From Nitrosarchaeum sp. (GTDB taxonomy: Archaea > Thermoproteota > Nitrososphaeria > Nitrososphaerales > Nitrosopumilaceae): a DNA stretch of 64,000 nucleotides. The stretch covers positions 1 through 64,000 of the forward strand of contig NSIR01000001.1 in assembly GCA_002737445.1 (NCBI GenBank), written 5' to 3'. The notes beneath the pieces were generated by a model. The model worked only from the letters and a program-made list of their open reading frames with translations, did no database searches and had not been told where the DNA came from. Shown one piece after another: positions 18,540-31,364 of this stretch (positions are counted from its first letter, which is position 1; each line of letters starts with the position of its first letter). A program made the translations under genes and the position numbers.

Positions 18540-20186
18540 ATGATTATGAATAAATCTAAAATTCTTATTTTTTCAATATTTATGTTAATTATTTTACAAA
18601 TTCCATTAAATGCATTTGGAGATGGATTCACACAAGAAAATCTTCCTCCAGCAAGTGTAGGAAATAGAGATGCTAGTCTCTTTATCAAAATCAGTCCGCC
18701 AATTCTTACCGAAAATACAGCCGAAGATAAATTTTTAGAATTACGTCTTTTTGATGCCAAAACAGGAGAAACCATCAAACATACATCATTTTTTGTTACG
18801 GTTGATAAAGACGGAAAACTTTTGATGAGAGATTTATTTCATACACACACTGGAAGTTTGATCATAAAAATTAAATCTGAGGATCTTGATGTTAATGACA
18901 TTGTTGTATACGGGGATCATGAACCGTATCTAGATGCATGGACTTCAGTAAATGATAACATCAGCGTAAAAGCTCCAATCTTACTTGATGCTGGATTATA
19001 TCATTTTGAGATCGAAATTTTTGGAATTGACTATGATAATAATATTTTTGCTACATCTGATGCTCCGAGATTTGATTCTTGGCTTAGTGTTGGAGATATT
19101 TTTAATCAAAAAGTTTCAACTGGAGGTAAATCTTATGATTTATCTATCACCTCATACTATGATAAGATAAATAATTTCAATTATGATGAAACAAAAAAAT
19201 CAATCACATTTTCAATGCCATTTAATTGGGATATATCAAGACTAGAAAAACAAAATATTTTTGTTCATGAAGAAATTCATTTTCCAACTTCCTTTAAAGA
19301 ATTTTCACAAGCTGGAGCATACAAAGCAACTGTAAATGGATTTCCTGTTACAGGTAGAATGCTAATTGCTGATCCATATTCATTGGATAATACATCAATT
19401 CTTCATTATTTGTTAAGTAAACAAAACGTTTTAGATATTGCAAAAACTCTCAAACCTGGAACAAAAACAATGGAATTCAGTCTATCTCCAGATAATTCAT
19501 TAAAAGTAGAAAAAAATTCATTTGATGTAAATTTTGATACTGGTGTATTTGCTAAAATTAAATATGATTCAAAATTAGTTTCAGATAAAAAAATTCCATT
19601 TGAAATAGTTTTTTTTGATAAAAATAATAATTTATTGAAATGGGTTACTTATGGATACAGAATAGAAGATTCAAGTGGAACTACAATTCATGAATCAAAA
19701 AATATGGATCCTAATAAACCAGGAATACTTTTGACAGAAGGCATTGATAAACCTGAATTTGATTTTAAATCTATAGGTAAATACAAAATGACATTAGCAA
19801 TTTTCAGTCATGGATTAGATAATCTAAAAACTTTTTCTGGATTAGCTAGTAATTCATTTGATGTTGATTCAGGAAGCAGTGTAATTCCACCTCCTGATAA
19901 TTTATCAGGAATCAATCAAATTCCTACTTGGATTAAAAATAACGCTGGGTGGTGGGCAGACGGTTCAATTGATGATAAATCATTTGTACAGGGAATTCAA
20001 TATTTAATTAAAGAAAAAATAATGAAGATTCCACAAACCACTCAAGGAACAGGTTCTAGTAATCAAATTCCTACTTGGATTAAAAATAACGCTGGGTGGT
20101 GGGCAGACGGTTCAATTGATGATAAATCTTTTGTTCAAGGTATACAATATTTGATCAAAGAAGGAATAATGAAAATTGAACGATAA
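18540..20186 (+). CDS. Secreted surface protein with two C-terminal WIKNNAGWW repeats
   Basis: A protein of 548 residues. Signal peptide about 1-22, then a mature start DGFTQENLPP, a large beta-rich ectodomain (about 30-445), and two tandem about 40-residue repeats (IPTWIKNNAGWWADGSIDD, then FVQGIQYLIKEGIM). Such repeats occur in many thaumarchaeal exported proteins and may bind the cell wall or glycans; that is inference. The ectodomain is paralogous to 7314-8690, but this one lacks a PEFG tail, so the repeats may replace the sorting signal as the anchor. Confidence 0.8.
   Translation: MIMNKSKILIFSIFMLIILQIPLNAFGDGFTQENLPPASVGNRDASLFIKISPPILTENTAEDKFLELRLFDAKTGETIKHTSFFVTVDKDGKLLMRDLFHTHTGSLIIKIKSEDLDVNDIVVYGDHEPYLDAWTSVNDNISVKAPILLDAGLYHFEIEIFGIDYDNNIFATSDAPRFDSWLSVGDIFNQKVSTGGKSYDLSITSYYDKINNFNYDETKKSITFSMPFNWDISRLEKQNIFVHEEIHFPTSFKEFSQAGAYKATVNGFPVTGRMLIADPYSLDNTSILHYLLSKQNVLDIAKTLKPGTKTMEFSLSPDNSLKVEKNSFDVNFDTGVFAKIKYDSKLVSDKKIPFEIVFFDKNNNLLKWVTYGYRIEDSSGTTIHESKNMDPNKPGILLTEGIDKPEFDFKSIGKYKMTLAIFSHGLDNLKTFSGLASNSFDVDSGSSVIPPPDNLSGINQIPTWIKNNAGWWADGSIDDKSFVQGIQYLIKEKIMKIPQTTQGTGSSNQIPTWIKNNAGWWADGSIDDKSFVQGIQYLIKEGIMKIER
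19914..20128 (+). repeat. 68-bp exact direct repeat encoding the WIKNNAGWW unit
   Basis: Positions 19914-19981 and 20061-20128 are identical over 68 bp, offset by 147 bp (49 codons). Downstream the copies differ at synonymous and other sites. Exact identity limited to this core points to recent duplication or gene conversion within the coding sequence. Confidence 0.85.
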
Positions 20187-20202
20187 TCTCAAGTGACAAA
20201 AC

Positions 20203-20409
20203 ATGAAAGACATTAACGATATTCTTCCAAAAGTACCTAACATGAAATGGGGAGCTTTAATGAACAAAGCACCAACTAATAAAAAAGTTGAAGAAATGAA
20301 TAAAATTTTTCCGCATAATGGAAAATGGCATACTGTCTTTGAAGAAAAAGATCAAGTAACTGTTGATGGCAAACAAATTTGGAAAAAAGATCCAAACAAG
20401 TGGACTTGA
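20203..20409 (+). CDS. Small hypothetical protein
   Basis: A protein of 68 residues, basic, with three Trp and a Pro-rich start (INDILPKVPNMKWG). It has no signal peptide or metal motif. It begins 16 bp after the previous stop on the same strand, so it may be cotranscribed. No family is recognised. Confidence 0.5.
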   Translation: MKDINDILPKVPNMKWGALMNKAPTNKKVEEMNKIFPHNGKWHTVFEEKDQVTVDGKQIWKKDPNKWT

Positions 20410-20479
20410 TTATTTCTTTATTAACATTAAAGAATAATTTAATCTAGATTTTAAATATACAATCAAGAAATAAAAAGAC

Positions 20480-20656
20480 TTGAATGGAAAAACTTTACAT
20501 CTGTTAATTTTGTTATCTATTTGTATCATTTTTCCAATTGTAAATGTTTATGGTCATGGTATGGGAAGTGAAACATTTCCACCTGTTGATCTAGATGATG
20601 AAACTTTTGTTAAAGGATTACAATATTTAATACAAAATAGAATTCTTAATATATGA
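20480..20656 (+). CDS. Miniature secreted protein: N terminus and tail of the surface family with no middle
   Basis: A TTG at 20480, with TTAAATATAC about 26 bp upstream, opens 58 codons. The product has a signal peptide (about 1-24, ending NVYG), then HGMGSETFPPVDLDD, and finally TFVKGLQYLIQNRILNI. The start matches secreted relatives here (VYGHGFG at 7314, LPP at 18540), and the end matches their repeat tail (FVQGIQYLIKEGIM). It looks like an internally deleted member of the same family that kept its promoter. It may be a remnant or a functional small exported protein. Confidence 0.55.
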   Translation: MNGKTLHLLILLSICIIFPIVNVYGHGMGSETFPPVDLDDETFVKGLQYLIQNRILNI

Positions 20657-20740
20657 TAATTTGAGTTAAACAGAAACTAGTCCATTTTAATATATAAAAT
20701 ACATATTATACTAACACAAGAGAAATAACAGATCAGTTAA

Positions 20741-22036
20741 TTGAAGGCAATAATACAAACAGATTTGAAAAACCACTATTTTAATTTCAAGATTTCATCA
20801 ACTGTTTCTAGTTTATTACAATCAAAAATAATGTTTATTTTAATTGGATTCATATTTACTTTATTATTAATTTCACAATTTACATTTGCTGAGGTTTTCA
20901 TACCACCACAAGAGTATATCGGATATTTTGATTATGAAGGTGTATATACAGTTGGAGGTAATGTAAAAAATCAAAATGATTATGCTGTAATTCCAACTAT
21001 TACAGTTTCTGTAATTGATGGAGAAAATACATTTACAAAGATAATATCTCATGTTACAATTCCACCAAATACAGATATTCCATTTAAGACAAAATTTCCT
21101 GAAATTATAGGAGATACACCTATCTTACTTGTAGCTGAACTCAAATTTGTAAAAACTCAAAAAAATTCAACATCACTTGAGATTATTTATGATAAAACAT
21201 TAATCAAACATGATGATGGTCATGTTACAGGAAGAATTCATAATAATGGAAACCATATTGTCCTTAACCCTAAAATTTTTGCAATAGCTCATGGTAATGG
21301 AACAGTACTTGATATTGTTCAGAATATTGAACGCATTGACAAAATAGCACCTGGTGAAATTCTAGAGTTTTCAATGTATCCTGATCCCTCAATAACTGAT
21401 GATGTTTTTTTTTATAGCTGTTTTGCACCTGTAGATACCACAGTTATTCCAATAACTGCAAAGAAAAATGGAGGTAATTTTGATTTTAGATATGATTCAG
21501 GTGCATGGTATTATGATGCTAAATTCAATGAAGATGGAACAATTCTTACAATACGTGGATACAATAGCTACCCACTTGAAACTTATGCAAATTTTGAATT
21601 TCCACAAATTTCAGGCAAAGAAAAATTTAATGTAACTCTAAATGATAAACATGTAGAATTTATTCAAAGCGTAGATACAGGATTTTGGCATGTTGCATTT
21701 ACTGTAGACCCAAGATCACAAGGAATTCTAAAGATTACTGGTTTTGAAAAAGGTTTACCTCTTGTAACCTCTAAAATTCCACAATGGATAAAAACAAATG
21801 CAAATTGGTGGTCTACAGATCAAATATCTGATTTAGAATTTCTTGAAGGAATAGATTTTTTATTTGAAAAAGGAATTGCAACAGTACCATCAAAACAAAT
21901 AACTGTTCAATCAAATTGGAAACTTTCACCATGGATTAAATCAGCAGCAGGTTGGTGGTCTGAAGATAAAATTTCAGATGATGATTTTCTAAATATGATT
22001 GAAAATCTTGTTAAGCGAAAAATAATTATAATTTAA
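20741..22036 (+). CDS. Secreted protein with two divergent WIK-WW repeats
   Basis: A protein of 431 residues from the TTG. An ATG at 20831 (MFILIGFIFTLL) would start directly at the signal peptide and is a serious alternative. CATATTATAC about 33 bp before the TTG favours the longer form. The ectodomain has repeated beta-sandwich units (about 55-350), followed by two repeats (IPQWIKTNANWWSTDQISD and LSPWIKSAAGWWSEDKISD). It is similar in design to 18540-20186. Probably cell-surface; function unknown. Confidence 0.7.
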   Translation: MKAIIQTDLKNHYFNFKISSTVSSLLQSKIMFILIGFIFTLLLISQFTFAEVFIPPQEYIGYFDYEGVYTVGGNVKNQNDYAVIPTITVSVIDGENTFTKIISHVTIPPNTDIPFKTKFPEIIGDTPILLVAELKFVKTQKNSTSLEIIYDKTLIKHDDGHVTGRIHNNGNHIVLNPKIFAIAHGNGTVLDIVQNIERIDKIAPGEILEFSMYPDPSITDDVFFYSCFAPVDTTVIPITAKKNGGNFDFRYDSGAWYYDAKFNEDGTILTIRGYNSYPLETYANFEFPQISGKEKFNVTLNDKHVEFIQSVDTGFWHVAFTVDPRSQGILKITGFEKGLPLVTSKIPQWIKTNANWWSTDQISDLEFLEGIDFLFEKGIATVPSKQITVQSNWKLSPWIKSAAGWWSEDKISDDDFLNMIENLVKRKIIII

Positions 22037-26120: not shown

Positions 26121-26294
26121 ATGATCACATTGATGTCTGTAGAAATTACTTGTGGTAAATGTGGTGAAAAGATCGCTAGTATGAAAATGTTAAAATCTTT
26201 AAAAGATGTAATGAATCCACATAATGGAAAGTGTCCATCATGCGGACAAAAGTTATCTACATCTGAATTTTCTTTGGATGTACAAGAAAACTGA
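26121..26294 (+). CDS. Small zinc-ribbon protein (57 aa)
   Basis: ATG at 26121 opens 57 codons; an ATG at 26133 (MSVEITCGKCGEK) could also be the start. Two CxxC pairs (CGKC and CPSC, about 27 residues apart) form a zinc ribbon. There is no other domain. It occupies the gap between the DUF35 gene and the HTH/NrdD-like gene. Possible nucleic-acid or protein binder; function unknown. Confidence 0.65.
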   Translation: MITLMSVEITCGKCGEKIASMKMLKSLKDVMNPHNGKCPSCGQKLSTSEFSLDVQEN

Positions 26295-26417
26295 TCTTAA
26301 AATCATACAAATTTTTATTTTCCTCTATTTTATTATCAACTAAATCTATTTAATATAAAAAAATATCCTATTTTTTTTTATACATAGTCTTATTTATTGG
26401 TCTATTTACAAAGACAC

Positions 26418-28511
26418 ATGGAATTAGATGAAGAATTAGAAGAGCCAAAACGTGGTGGAATTCTTCAATCTACATCAAAACGTGTAAGAATGATATTTTC
26501 TGTAATGGCAAGTCCAAACAGAATAGATATTTTAAGAATTTTAAATTCAAAAGGCCCATTAACATATTCTGAATTAAAGTCATTAGCAGGATTCAAATCC
26601 AAAAAAGAAAGTGGAAAGTTTGCCTATCACTTGAGAAAATTATTAAGACAATCTCTTGTGGCATTAAATAAATCTGAAAGACGATATACAATTACAAATC
26701 TTGGTAAACTTGTTTTAAGTTTGGCAAGACAGATTGAGGAACGATCAATTATTGAGAGTGGAAAAATGTATGTTAGAACATCACATGAATCAATTGAGGA
26801 ATTAAATTCTCATAAAATTATTCAATCACTTGTTCGTGAAGGTAGTCTTCCATTAGAATTAGCTCAAAAAATTACCGAAGAAGTTGAAAATAGAATTTAC
26901 AAATATCAAACAACATATCTTACTGGAGCTCTTATTCGAGAAATGGTAAATTCTGTTCTTTTAGAACATGGTCATGAAGAATATCGCAATAAACTAGCAC
27001 GCCTAGGTTTACCTGTATATGATGTTCAAGAAATGCTAACAAATCTCGATAATGTAGATAATGGTGCAGAAGGATTACTTTTCAATACTGGTCAGAAAGT
27101 ATTTGCAGAACATTTACTGACAAATGTATTACCTAAAGATGTTGCAGATTCACATCTTTCTGGTGAAATGCATATTTCAAATCCAGGAATTTGGTCAATG
27201 ATACCTGATACAATATTTGTTAATGTAAAAGAACTGATTGAAGATGGAGTTATTCTTGGCGGAAAATATTTGGATGTATCAAGAATTACATCCTCAAAAT
27301 CAATTGATGATGTTACAACTTCATTATCTATAATCATATCATTACTTTCTAAAGAAGCCTCACAAGAAATAGTGATTGATGGATTGATTACACTTTTTAC
27401 AAAATACTCAAAGAATATTCCTGAACTAGAACAAAAATTAACGGATGCTTTTGCTACTGCATCTACTACATCAAAATATAATAGAAAAAGCACTAATGTT
27501 TCAATTAGACTTCAATTAGGTACTGATCTAAAAATTATTAATGCAATAATAAATGCATACAAGAATTACACAAAAATAACTCCAATACCAAAAATTGGTT
27601 TAATTGTAGATTTCGATAAAGGAAAAATCACGGATGTTTCTGAATCATTAGCAGAAATAATTTCTATTGGCGGTAAAGTCATGTTTGCAAAAAGTGAAGT
27701 ATCTAGTTACGGTATTACAAATGGGACAACTAAAACTTCTGGCCCACTTGCAATAACACTACAATCTGTTTCAATTAATCTTCCAAGACTTGCATTTGAA
27801 TCTAATAAAGATGAAACATACTTTAGAGCAAGACTTGCATTACTTATGAAACCTGTTTTGTCTTCTATGGCATTACGAAAAAAAGATATTTCAGATATTA
27901 CTAGAAGAGGATTAAATCCAATTCTTGCAAAGAATACACAATATATGCAAAGAAGTTCTGTTTCCCTAATTGTAAATCTTGTAGGACTCAAAGAATCTGT
28001 TTTCAATATTCTAGGATTCCAAGATAATAAAGAAGGACAAAATATACTCAACAAAGTAATAGAAACTGCAGTTGATGTTGCTACCAAAAAAGGTAAGGAA
28101 ATTGGTGATACTGTGACTATATCCATGACTGAAACTGAAGGTTCTAGTCGTTTTGCAACATTAGATGGCGAGAAATATGGTAAAAATTCAACTCTTAATT
28201 CAATGCATAGTGATTCTTACTCACAAGGACTAGTACTCAACGCCTCTGAAATGACTAACTATACAAGTAAAACTGAGATTATATCCGAGTGCAATAAACT
28301 ATCTAAATTACTTAATGGTGGATTGTTAATAAAATTAGATATTGAACATAATGCAACTCCAGCTGATATAAAAAAATCAATAGAAAAAGCAGCAGAACTA
28401 ACACCATCATTCAAACCTGTAAAGAAAATATCTCTTTGTGGTGAATGTGGATTCAAAGATGAACCATTTGTAGATAAGTGTCCAAAGTGTAAATCTTCAT
28501 ACGTGATCTAA
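26418..28511 (+). CDS. HTH regulator fused to an ATP-cone and a catalytically degenerate NrdD-like domain
   Basis: A protein of 697 residues from the ATG at 26418; an in-frame TTG at 26397 is too close to the TATA-like TTTATACAT (centre about 26381). An ArsR-like winged helix (about 15-95, FSVMASPNRIDILRIL) precedes an ATP-cone (about 110-200). A long region follows that resembles anaerobic ribonucleotide reductase NrdD (SHLSGEMHI, SVSINLPRLAFES, VGLKESVFNILGF, TEGSSRFATLDGEKYG). A NrdD-type zinc finger ends it (CGECG, CPKCK). There is no glycyl-radical motif, and the active-site cysteines are missing. It probably senses dATP/ATP and represses nrdJ, which lies next. The role is inferred. Confidence 0.8.
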   Translation: MELDEELEEPKRGGILQSTSKRVRMIFSVMASPNRIDILRILNSKGPLTYSELKSLAGFKSKKESGKFAYHLRKLLRQSLVALNKSERRYTITNLGKLVLSLARQIEERSIIESGKMYVRTSHESIEELNSHKIIQSLVREGSLPLELAQKITEEVENRIYKYQTTYLTGALIREMVNSVLLEHGHEEYRNKLARLGLPVYDVQEMLTNLDNVDNGAEGLLFNTGQKVFAEHLLTNVLPKDVADSHLSGEMHISNPGIWSMIPDTIFVNVKELIEDGVILGGKYLDVSRITSSKSIDDVTTSLSIIISLLSKEASQEIVIDGLITLFTKYSKNIPELEQKLTDAFATASTTSKYNRKSTNVSIRLQLGTDLKIINAIINAYKNYTKITPIPKIGLIVDFDKGKITDVSESLAEIISIGGKVMFAKSEVSSYGITNGTTKTSGPLAITLQSVSINLPRLAFESNKDETYFRARLALLMKPVLSSMALRKKDISDITRRGLNPILAKNTQYMQRSSVSLIVNLVGLKESVFNILGFQDNKEGQNILNKVIETAVDVATKKGKEIGDTVTISMTETEGSSRFATLDGEKYGKNSTLNSMHSDSYSQGLVLNASEMTNYTSKTEIISECNKLSKLLNGGLLIKLDIEHNATPADIKKSIEKAAELTPSFKPVKKISLCGECGFKDEPFVDKCPKCKSSYVI

Positions 28512-28712
28512 AATTAGTATATAAATAATTAGTTCCGATAGCTTTATTAAATTTTTTTTATGTTATAGGCAGCGATCTTATTCATTCATACCTGTATCAC
28601 TTTCATAATAGCGGTGTTAAAAAAATTGACTCAACAAGGGGACATGATCAAAATTTTTCAAGCAAACAAGTTATAACACCATTGTTCTTAATTGACTTTA
28701 GGAGATTATAAT
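28512..28712 (+). promoter_or_regulatory. Long nrdJ leader with inverted repeat and ribosome-binding site
   Basis: AGTATATAAATA near 28518-28527 is the best TATA box, which would give a leader of about 160 nt, long for this genome. GGTGTTA (28613-28619) and TAACACC (28674-28680) are inverted repeats. GGAG at 28701-28704 precedes the TTG at 28713 by 8 nt and decides that start. No cobalamin-riboswitch B12 box is seen. It could hold the operator of the HTH/ATP-cone protein or an RNA switch. Confidence 0.4.
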
Positions 28713-31364
28713 TTGGATAAATCACAAATAGAAAGTACTATCAATGAGATTCGTAAGCGAAATGGGACTATAACAACTTTTAATCAAGATAAAATTTCAA
28801 ATGCAATATTCAAAGCATTGGTAGCAACTTCTAAAGGTGATCGCACGTTAGCCGATCAACTTGCAAACAAAGTTATTCAAAAATTAGTTGAACAAGGATT
28901 TACAAATTCTCGAAGTCCTAGTGTTGAAGATATTCAAGATATTGTTGAATCAACTTTAATTGATTGTGGTAATAGTGACATTGCAAAAACATTCATTGTT
29001 TACAGACATGAACGAAGAAAATTGAGAGACGAAAAAATGAAAGTCTTAAACATGAAATCATTAGATTCAGTTTCAAAGAATTTTGATCTAAATTGTTTGA
29101 GAGTATTAGCATCTAGATATCTATTTAGAAATAATAAAAATGAAATTATTGAATCACCTACTCAAATGTTTGAAAGAGTTGCAATTCTAGTTGGAGTGGG
29201 CGATATTCTATATGACGCACAAGTATTCGATAAATCTGGAAGCATTACTCAAAATATTGATGAAGCACGTACATATCTTGAAAAATTAGATAATTTTGAT
29301 TACAAATTTAAAATTGGAGATTACTTTCTTAACAAATGGCACTTTAGATCTTTAATTAGTCACTATGTAACACTTGCAAATAAAGGACAAATGAAAGTAA
29401 GCTTTAAAGATCTTTTAACATTACTTGCAGGCAAAAAATTTGATGAATATGGTGAAAAGATAACAGAATACTTTGAATTAATGACCGCACAAGTATTTCT
29501 ACCAAATTCACCAACAATGATGAATGCCGGTGGACGATTAGGTCAACTTTCTGCCTGTTTTGTTCTTGGAATGCCTGATGATATGGAAAAAATTATGAAA
29601 TCAACTTCTGATGCAGCATTAATTTTCAAATCAGGTGGCGGTGTTGGAATTAACTATTCTGATCTTCGTGAAGAAGGCGATATTGTTGCATCAACTTCCG
29701 GTGTAGCTTCTGGTCCAGTTTCTTTTATGAATATTATCAATACAGTAACAGAAGTTGTAAAACAAGGTGGAAAAAGAAGAGGAGCAAATATGGGAATTAT
29801 TGAAGCTTGGCATCCAGATGTTGAAAAATTCATCACAAACAAAACAGAACCTGGCGTATTGGAGAATTTTAATGTCAGTGTAGGTATTTGGGAGGACTTT
29901 TGGAATGCACTTGTAAACACAGATGATGGGAAATACATGCTACGTAGTCCACGTGATAAAAAACCAGTAAAAGAAATTAATGCACATCAATTAATTGATT
30001 TGATAGCTCTTTCTGCATGGAAAAGTGCTGAGCCTGGATTGATATTTTTTGATCAAATTAACAAATACAATGTATTTGCTAAAGCAAGGCAAGCTCCATT
30101 AAGAGCTACAAATCCATGTGGCGAACAAAGTCTATACCCATACGAGTCATGTAATCTTGGTTCAATTAACTTGGTAAATCTTGTAAAAAGAAAAGCTGAT
30201 GGAGATTATGAATTTGATTGGCAAAGATATGAAGAAACAATCAGAAAAACAACAAAATTCTTGGATAACATTATCGATGTAAATAATTATCCTGTAAAAG
30301 ATATTGATATTGCCTCAAAAGATTCTAGACGAATTGGATTAGGTGTTATGGGTGTTGCAGATCTCTTATACAAATTAAAAATTCCATATAACTCCAAAGA
30401 AGGTTATGAATTACAATCAAAATTATCTGAAGCACTAACTTATTACTCCATGGAAGAAAGTGTAGCACTTGCAAAATCAAGAGGAGAATTTCCACTTTGT
30501 TCAAAAACAGAATATCCAGAAGGAAAGATTCCAATTGCAGGTTATTATGAAAAACCAAAGGAATCACATTGTTATGAATGGGATGCATTAATCGAGAAAA
30601 TTAAAAAACATGGAATTAGAAATGTTTTGACTACTACTGTTGCACCAACAGGAACCCTATCTATGATTGCTGATTGTTCAAATGGAATGGAACCAGCATT
30701 TGCTCTAGTGTTTGAAAAAAGAGTTACTGTAGGCAGATTCTTTTACACAAACAAAATTGTTGAAGAAGTACTCAAAGAACATGGTCTATACAGTGATGAA
30801 CTTCTTACAAAGATTGCAGATAATTACGGTTCTTTGAAAGGAATTCCTGAAATTCCACAATGGATGCAAGATGTCTATGTAACTGCAATGGATATTCACT
30901 GGGCAGATCATTTAATGGCTCAAGGTACATGGCAAGATTGGATTGGAAATGCAATTGCAAAAACAATCAATATGCCATACGATGTTACTGTAGATGATGT
31001 AAAATCATCATATTTACTAGCTCATGAATTAGGTCTTAAAGGCACTACTGTATATCGTGATGGTTCCAGACATAAACAAGTACTTCACATGACAAGTGAA
31101 AATGCACAAAAAACATTCGTTGTTACACCAAGTGACTATGTTACCAAATATGTAGCAACTATGATTACAAACCCATACATTAAAACACAAATCCATAATG
31201 CACTTGAATTAAAAATTCCTGATGAAGAAATTATCTCTCAACCTATGAGACAGGAAGAAGTATCTGAAGACAGACTATGTCCAACATGCAAAAATAATCT
31301 TGTATTTGTAGAAGGATGCAGTATATGCATTGAATGTGGATTCAGCGGCTGTACTTCTGGATAG
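28713..31364 (+). CDS. nrdJ: Adenosylcobalamin-dependent ribonucleotide reductase (class II)
   Basis: A protein of 883 residues from the TTG at 28713, chosen for its GGAG ribosome-binding site; the frame is open to 28692. It makes deoxyribonucleotides using a B12-derived radical. An N-terminal ATP-cone (about 10-100) gives allosteric control. Catalytic-barrel motifs include QLSACFVLGMP, NPCGEQSLYPYESCNLGSI and TTTVAPTGTLS. The C terminus carries CPTCKNN and CIECGFSGC for re-reduction of the active site. It depends on the cobamide pathway, part of which is encoded at 56.3-60.5 kb. Confidence 0.97.
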   Translation: MDKSQIESTINEIRKRNGTITTFNQDKISNAIFKALVATSKGDRTLADQLANKVIQKLVEQGFTNSRSPSVEDIQDIVESTLIDCGNSDIAKTFIVYRHERRKLRDEKMKVLNMKSLDSVSKNFDLNCLRVLASRYLFRNNKNEIIESPTQMFERVAILVGVGDILYDAQVFDKSGSITQNIDEARTYLEKLDNFDYKFKIGDYFLNKWHFRSLISHYVTLANKGQMKVSFKDLLTLLAGKKFDEYGEKITEYFELMTAQVFLPNSPTMMNAGGRLGQLSACFVLGMPDDMEKIMKSTSDAALIFKSGGGVGINYSDLREEGDIVASTSGVASGPVSFMNIINTVTEVVKQGGKRRGANMGIIEAWHPDVEKFITNKTEPGVLENFNVSVGIWEDFWNALVNTDDGKYMLRSPRDKKPVKEINAHQLIDLIALSAWKSAEPGLIFFDQINKYNVFAKARQAPLRATNPCGEQSLYPYESCNLGSINLVNLVKRKADGDYEFDWQRYEETIRKTTKFLDNIIDVNNYPVKDIDIASKDSRRIGLGVMGVADLLYKLKIPYNSKEGYELQSKLSEALTYYSMEESVALAKSRGEFPLCSKTEYPEGKIPIAGYYEKPKESHCYEWDALIEKIKKHGIRNVLTTTVAPTGTLSMIADCSNGMEPAFALVFEKRVTVGRFFYTNKIVEEVLKEHGLYSDELLTKIADNYGSLKGIPEIPQWMQDVYVTAMDIHWADHLMAQGTWQDWIGNAIAKTINMPYDVTVDDVKSSYLLAHELGLKGTTVYRDGSRHKQVLHMTSENAQKTFVVTPSDYVTKYVATMITNPYIKTQIHNALELKIPDEEIISQPMRQEEVSEDRLCPTCKNNLVFVEGCSICIECGFSGCTSG

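Follow-up and report, generated by a model that had tools for sequence, protein, structure and literature searches.

The window analysed here, a stretch of 64,000 nucleotides at the start of the Nitrosarchaeum sp. contig NSIR01000001.1, contains a gene (26418..28511, + strand) whose product resembles NrdD, the anaerobic (class III) ribonucleotide reductase (RNR), and which lies directly before nrdJ, the gene of a class II RNR. The question raised by this locus is what such a protein does beside a reductase gene of another class. A preliminary description, made from the sequence alone, suggested that it is a retired enzyme turned into a nucleotide-sensing transcription factor. The issue has a wider bearing since, to our knowledge, it is not understood how archaea without the regulator NrdR match dNTP supply to demand. 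In the following, "the order" refers to the Nitrososphaerales and "the window's family" to the Nitrosopumilaceae, according to the GTDB lineage of the contig; L-, G- and f-numbers are the survey labels of loci, genomes and families, respectively.

Architecture and loss of the catalytic residues

The open reading frame spans 26397-28511 and its ATG at 26418 yields a protein of 697 aa, the proposed RNR regulator, referred to below as the pseudo-NrdD protein. The preliminary description had recognized in it an ArsR-like winged helix, an ATP-cone, an NrdD-like body and the NrdD zinc finger, and all four held in Pfam, PDB profile and fold matches. The ArsR-type winged helix-turn-helix (residues about 20-100; 26475..26717, + strand) is detected by Pfam at residues 26-100 (DUF7347, E 2.7e-10; HTH_20, E 7.3e-8), and the only PDB matches of the N-terminal sequence profile are ArsR/SmtB-type regulators, including CadC, HlyU and NolR. 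It is followed by an ATP-cone (residues about 117-200; 26766..27017, + strand; PF03477 at residues 117-189, E 1.4e-7), which has a non-canonical VRTS instead of the KR-DG motif. The structural matches of the N-terminal model are ArsR-type regulators as well as the ATP-cones of NrdR and RNRs, and its own ATP-cone superposes on the latter mostly at about 2-2.8 A over ~90 residues. The rest of the protein is an NrdD-like alpha/beta barrel body (residues about 201-665; 27018..28412, + strand) and an NrdD zinc ribbon (C674, C677, C688 and C691; 28413..28508, + strand) that forms the chain terminus. The similarity to NrdD that had been claimed is strong: Pfam places an NRDD domain at residues 439-693 (E 3.8e-28), and a profile built from 67 relatives aligns with solved class III RNRs from residue 201 to the C-terminus (E 1.3e-36). 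Moreover, the 36 best PDB matches of the AlphaFold2 model (mean pLDDT 85.7) are all class III RNRs (Foldseek, best E 3.9e-22), and comparison with the T4 NrdD gives a TM of 0.66 by target.

The domains are unequally conserved. Conservation inside the order peaks in the winged helix, where 50/81 columns are at least 90% identical, far above the body; across the whole family of homologues the peak lies in the ATP-cone (mean identity to the majority 0.72 vs 0.42 for the body). An unsystematic look for the metal-ligand Cys/His set of ArsR metal sensors revealed no Cys among the invariant columns of the winged helix.

To compare the catalytic residues, 61 members of the family were aligned with seven genuine NrdDs, all with RVTGY or RITGY, which come from related loci. 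In RPFCQ, the active-site Cys (C175 of the L187 NrdD, the position of T4 C79) is absent from all 61 members, most of those from the order having Thr instead. The thiyl-radical pair C384/C385 is likewise gone from the 61 sequences, with the exception of a single Cys at 385 in three close relatives, and the ENAN (NxN) flap of NrdD is missing from the pseudo-NrdD protein. The glycyl-radical motif R(V/I)TGY near the C-terminus is absent in 61/61, also in the relaxed form R-[VI]-x-G-Y. Intermediate stages of decay are visible here: remnants of the loop persist outside the order (e.g., SRANAKYS where NrdD has SRVTGYYQ), whereas in the order members the chain stops right after the zinc ribbon, and the loop has therefore been deleted. 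The claim that the radical motif and the active Cys are missing is thus confirmed. The four zinc Cys are kept in 55/61 members, including 21/21 of those from the order. The seven NrdDs share 217 invariant body columns, of which the order retains 20 at a level of at least 90%, including N454-L-P-R457, D583, Y601 and GG634-635. It may be inferred that the fold, and perhaps a pocket, remains under selection without the chemistry. In a short branch (L202-L207, 545-706 aa), the zinc ribbon and a large part of the NrdD body are gone and the winged helix and the ATP-cone remain, as if the decay of the enzyme part had advanced further in it.

Two other features of the window were recorded. A small conserved ORF encoding a zinc ribbon (CGKCG...CPSCG; 26123-26290) lies just 5' of the regulator gene, and two adjacent, probably secreted proteins are encoded at 18540-22036, with C-terminal repeats of WIKNNAGWWADGxIDDxxFxxGIQYLI-type units.

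Linkage with reductase genes and distribution

The gene downstream of the regulator (28692..31364, + strand) encodes an adenosylcobalamin-dependent class II RNR with its own ATP-cone (TIGR02504, E 3.9e-215; PF02867; PF03477). Its likely start is a TTG at 28713, preceded by AGGAG, and lies ~200 bp 3' of the regulator gene. The genome of the window has no PF02867 reductase besides this nrdJ, and its sole PF13597 match is the pseudo-NrdD protein itself. Of 121 loci of the order, 117 have nrdJ as the following same-strand gene, and in the other four the contig ends; in other words, nrdJ follows in 117/117 loci with enough contig. The linked NrdJs are not orthologous throughout: those of L035/41/44/45/50 are at most 40% identical to the main group and those of L036/46 at most 34%, so that at least three unrelated NrdJ subfamilies are found behind the regulator gene. 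In seven loci outside the order (families f38, f47 and f67), the regulator gene is followed by a genuine glycyl-radical nrdD as the next RNR gene, and in one locus by nrdJ. The other loci outside the order, which are the majority, have no RNR gene within ~6 kb. The probability of finding 8/40 RNR neighbours there by chance is near 2e-13, a rough estimate that assumes about two RNR genes per 1500 genes and ignores phylogeny. The conserved linkage with nrdJ proposed in the preliminary description therefore holds across the order and extends to nrdD outside it. Since the regulator keeps its place while its neighbour changes NrdJ subfamily, and even RNR class, an action on the promoter or on dNTP demand is more likely than an action on one particular enzyme. 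A second nrdJ, located elsewhere and lacking an adjacent regulator gene, is present in several genomes of the order, and the only nrdJ type of G042, a nearly complete genome of the order that lacks the regulator gene, is one that is unlinked elsewhere.

Some loci have further peculiarities. In four of the seven nrdD-linked loci (L186, L195, L211 and L214) a glutaredoxin-like gene of about 92-108 codons separates the regulator from nrdD; its product may be an NrdH-like partner. Genes for aspartate carbamoyltransferase (pyrB/pyrI) adjoin the regulator, with pyrB convergent, in L181, L183, L188, L194 and many other loci outside the order, including many of those without a nearby RNR gene. The nrdJ of G048 (L042:2265-5711) encodes a 1149-aa NrdJ with an intein and LAGLIDADG endonuclease domains (PF14890, PF14528).

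The regulator gene is present in 59/61 genomes of the order, the named records being Nitrosarchaeum, Nitrosopumilus and relatives. Full-length homologues of 737-780 aa exist outside the order in many but not all families; their NRDD E-values go down to 1e-94, and they likewise have this winged helix and an ATP-cone. The tree places the order members on one supported side and the genuine NrdDs on another. NrdR (TIGR00244) scores above the cut-off in 5/101 genomes, all from one family outside the order, and has no match in the window genome or in any listed relative within the window's family. The genomes in which NrdR and the pseudo-NrdD protein co-occur are G061, G118, G128, G138 and G155 (family f18). 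Two separate reading frames, of 509 and 292 aa, make up the regulator gene in the nearly complete genome G018 (C1:1756004-1758075), a split that may reflect either a sequencing error or a genuine break. A viral origin of the gene was considered and rejected because viral contigs provided a single distant, partial match (residues 119-255).

A candidate operator upstream of nrdJ

An unbiased search of spaced 4-mers was carried out on 20 diverse nrdJ upstream regions and 21 regulator upstream regions. The top element before nrdJ, TCAA-N6-TTAA, was also among the top three before the regulator gene. With at most one mismatch, GTYAA-N6-TTRAC is found in 12/20 nrdJ upstream regions (Fisher p 1.8e-6) and 11/21 regulator upstream regions (Fisher p 1.7e-5), compared with 4/62 control intergenics from the same loci, and its enrichment peak is confined to a single spacing. 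These p-values are partly post hoc because the motif was first picked from the same regions. Taken with either spacing, GTYAA-N5/6-TTRAC is enriched before nrdJ across the order and also, in families other than the window's, before the regulator gene.

The spacing is N5 in the window's family and N6 elsewhere in the order. With N5 and at most one mismatch, the element occurs in 55/96 nrdJ upstream regions of the window's family vs 1/46 controls. The copy of the window, GTTAA-N5-TTGAC (28616..28630, + strand), is the proposed operator element. It is accompanied in this family by a 13-bp palindrome, TATGAANTTCATA, the central base of which is freely variable and which is exact in 42/96 nrdJ upstream regions vs 0/46 control intergenics; the window has a copy with 2 mismatches, TATCACTTTCATA (28595..28607, + strand). 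The centres of both elements are 22 bp apart, or about two helical turns, in 45/49 regions of the family having both. Only part of the window's family has this arrangement, despite the high conservation of the winged helix throughout the order.

When the window's family is set aside, about half of the order's regulator promoters have a best site with its centre 25-50 bp before the annotated start. In a leaderless archaeal gene the core promoter would be expected there, so this position is consistent with autorepression. No clear operator was found upstream of the window's own regulator gene, and none of the regulator upstream regions scored has a TATGAANTTCATA site with at most two mismatches. 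In loci outside the order, no shared motif before the regulator or nrdD stood out from shuffles.

Other candidates were discarded. TGTCC/TTTTC palindromes before the regulator gene in the window's family lie inside the small zinc-ribbon ORF and are explained by conservation of its coding sequence. A wider regulon is not supported either: with TATGAANTTCATA as a genome-wide marker, each of six relatives has only 1-3 exact sites, and the frequency of GTGTYAA-N5-TTGA does not exceed that of its reversed control. A search with Rfam over 25-32 kb of the window detected no riboswitch or other known RNA before nrdJ at the gathering threshold. The assignment of GTYAA-N5/6-TTRAC as the operator of the pseudo-NrdD protein is an inference: there are no binding data and the motif has not been tied to the protein.

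Putative role and comparison with known systems

The architecture, the loss of catalytic residues, the fold, the linkage across RNR subfamilies and classes and the enriched motif are established. A DNA-binding head on a dead reductase, directly before the gene of a working one, is most likely a switch for the amount of DNA-precursor machinery. It is thus likely that the pseudo-NrdD protein is a retired class III RNR now serving as a transcription factor dedicated to RNR genes, probably with control over its own gene, and as such an archaeal counterpart of NrdR; its DNA binding, nucleotide sensing and repressive effect are inferred. This agrees with the proposal of a retired enzyme turned transcription factor, and none of the results that had been named in advance as refuting it (no similarity to NrdD, an intact glycyl-radical and Cys set, or no conserved linkage with nrdJ) occurred. 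The candidate operator common to nrdJ and the regulator gene is a further support that was not available at that stage.

In the proposed scenario, a class III RNR would have given up catalysis, acquired an ArsR-type winged helix and become the transcription factor of the adjacent RNR gene. Its target in the nrdJ promoter would be the short palindrome GTYAA-N5/6-TTRAC, which is paired in the window's family with a second element at a distance of two helical turns; in the order's other families, it would also bind the palindrome in its own promoter. The levels of adenine nucleotides or dNTPs would be read by the ATP-cone, possibly with help from the retained reductase pocket, and this reading would change the oligomeric state or the domain arrangement and hence the occupancy of the DNA. 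The transcription of nrdJ would in that way be matched to dNTP demand, and so would the level of the regulator where its own promoter carries a site. Such switches exist in related proteins: ATP vs dATP shifts the dimer-tetramer balance of the P. copri NrdD (PMC11226230), and the loading of the ATP-cone controls the binding of NrdR to its boxes (PMC12176259). By analogy, the simplest inference is a similar switch read out through the winged helix. However, nucleotide sensing remains an inference, as it was in the preliminary description, because the replacement of the KR-DG motif by VRTS makes nucleotide binding by this ATP-cone uncertain. Genuine NrdDs of family f47 likewise have VRTS, so a cone of this form need not be dead and may still bind nucleotides.

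Several alternatives may be considered. One possibility is that the protein acts as a pseudo-subunit: its dead NrdD body would bind to NrdJ or NrdD and regulate the activity of that enzyme, and the winged helix would serve protein contacts or be incidental. The constant co-location with a reductase gene and the combination of a reductase-like fold with an ATP-cone are in its favor. Yet, a neighbour that switches among unrelated NrdJ subfamilies, and even to NrdD, is hard to reconcile with a physical partner and easy to reconcile with a promoter-binding protein; the winged helix being the most conserved part in the order and the promoter element common to nrdJ and the regulator gene also speak against this hypothesis, which seems unlikely. 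A still-active anaerobic reductase with unusual chemistry could be invoked on the basis of the retained fold, zinc ribbon and several pocket residues, but it is all but ruled out by the lack of a conserved Cys at either active-site position, of R(V/I)TGY and of the NxN flap, by a chain that ends before the radical loop in the order members, and by the fact that many hosts are aerobic ammonia oxidizers that already carry NrdJ.

The alternative that cannot be dismissed as easily is a transcription factor that responds to something other than adenine nucleotides, in which the ATP-cone would be a scaffold and either the reductase pocket would sense another nucleotide or the ribbon would sense zinc or redox state. 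The VRTS where KR-DG is expected, the conservation of the pocket residues N454, P456, R457, D583 and Y601 (at least 90% in the order) and the kept zinc Cys would fit this possibility; against it stand the ATP-cone being the most conserved domain over the whole family and the VRTS of the genuine f47 NrdDs. The presence of NrdR beside the pseudo-NrdD protein in some genomes of one family outside the order is evidence against the favored regulator reading itself. Also counting against it are the restriction of the two-element arrangement to part of the window's family, the difference between N5 and N6 spacing, the two mismatches of the window's 13-bp element, the missing operator before the window's regulator gene, the uncertain nucleotide binding of the VRTS-type cone and, outside the order, the lack of a shared motif and, in most loci, of an RNR gene nearby. 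A bolder version of the regulator reading, towards which the evidence leans only slightly, is that of an undescribed transcription-factor family, shared by ammonia-oxidizing archaea and other lineages of the phylum, which would have arisen from an anaerobic RNR by the gain of a winged helix and the loss of catalysis, would sense nucleotides through the ATP-cone and the reductase body, and would control whichever RNR class the cell uses.

Ammonia-oxidizing archaea are very abundant, and those in the genomes surveyed mostly have NrdJ alone as RNR. The present analysis yields a concrete candidate regulator and a candidate operator for their dNTP supply, and offers a case of an RNR leaving catalysis for regulation. 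If the bolder reading is true, an RNR fold is in itself a genetic sensor for the supply of DNA precursors. Enzymes retired into regulators are already known; in ROK-family repressors and other enzyme-derived transcription factors, the sensor is a former enzyme to which a winged helix has been fused, the ROK-type cases deriving from sugar kinases. No transcription factor derived from an RNR is known to us, and neither such a factor nor this regulator in particular is described in the literature searched, which did not cover subscription journals.

The closest functional parallel is NrdR. Both proteins contain an ATP-cone and a zinc ribbon, and both are associated with RNR genes of different classes. 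NrdR has palindromic sites before RNR genes and often before its own; the candidate sites described here, for which binding data are lacking, likewise occur before nrdJ and, outside the window's family, before the regulator gene. They are palindromes of 15-16 bp, and in the window's family the two elements face the same side of the helix; NrdR has two 16-bp boxes about 15 bp apart (PMC12176259). The box sequences of NrdR appear to differ from GTYAA-N6-TTRAC. Moreover, NrdR binds DNA through an N-terminal Zn-ribbon and has neither winged helix nor reductase body, whereas the zinc ribbon of the pseudo-NrdD protein is the C-terminal one of NrdD and the order of the domains differs. The earlier statement that the protein is analogous to NrdR in logic and unrelated in build was therefore too strong in its second half, since both contain an ATP-cone. 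With ArsR/SmtB regulators (CadC, CzrA, HlyU, NolR) the protein shares the sequence profile and the fold of its N-terminal domain (TMt 0.65-0.74, the highest value corresponding to CzrA), but those regulators are independent proteins of about 100 aa that in most cases respond to metals or redox state, and here the domain heads a reductase-derived protein of ~700 aa. With NrdD it shares the barrel fold, the upstream ATP-cone, the C-terminal zinc ribbon and the NLPR, GG, D and Y residues; it differs by the absence of the radical Gly, the active-site Cys and the NxN flap, by the added winged helix and by the short chain end. The pseudo-NrdD protein would thus work like NrdR, yet it does not meet the domain criteria of NrdR, and it descends from NrdD, yet it does not meet the catalytic criteria of NrdD.
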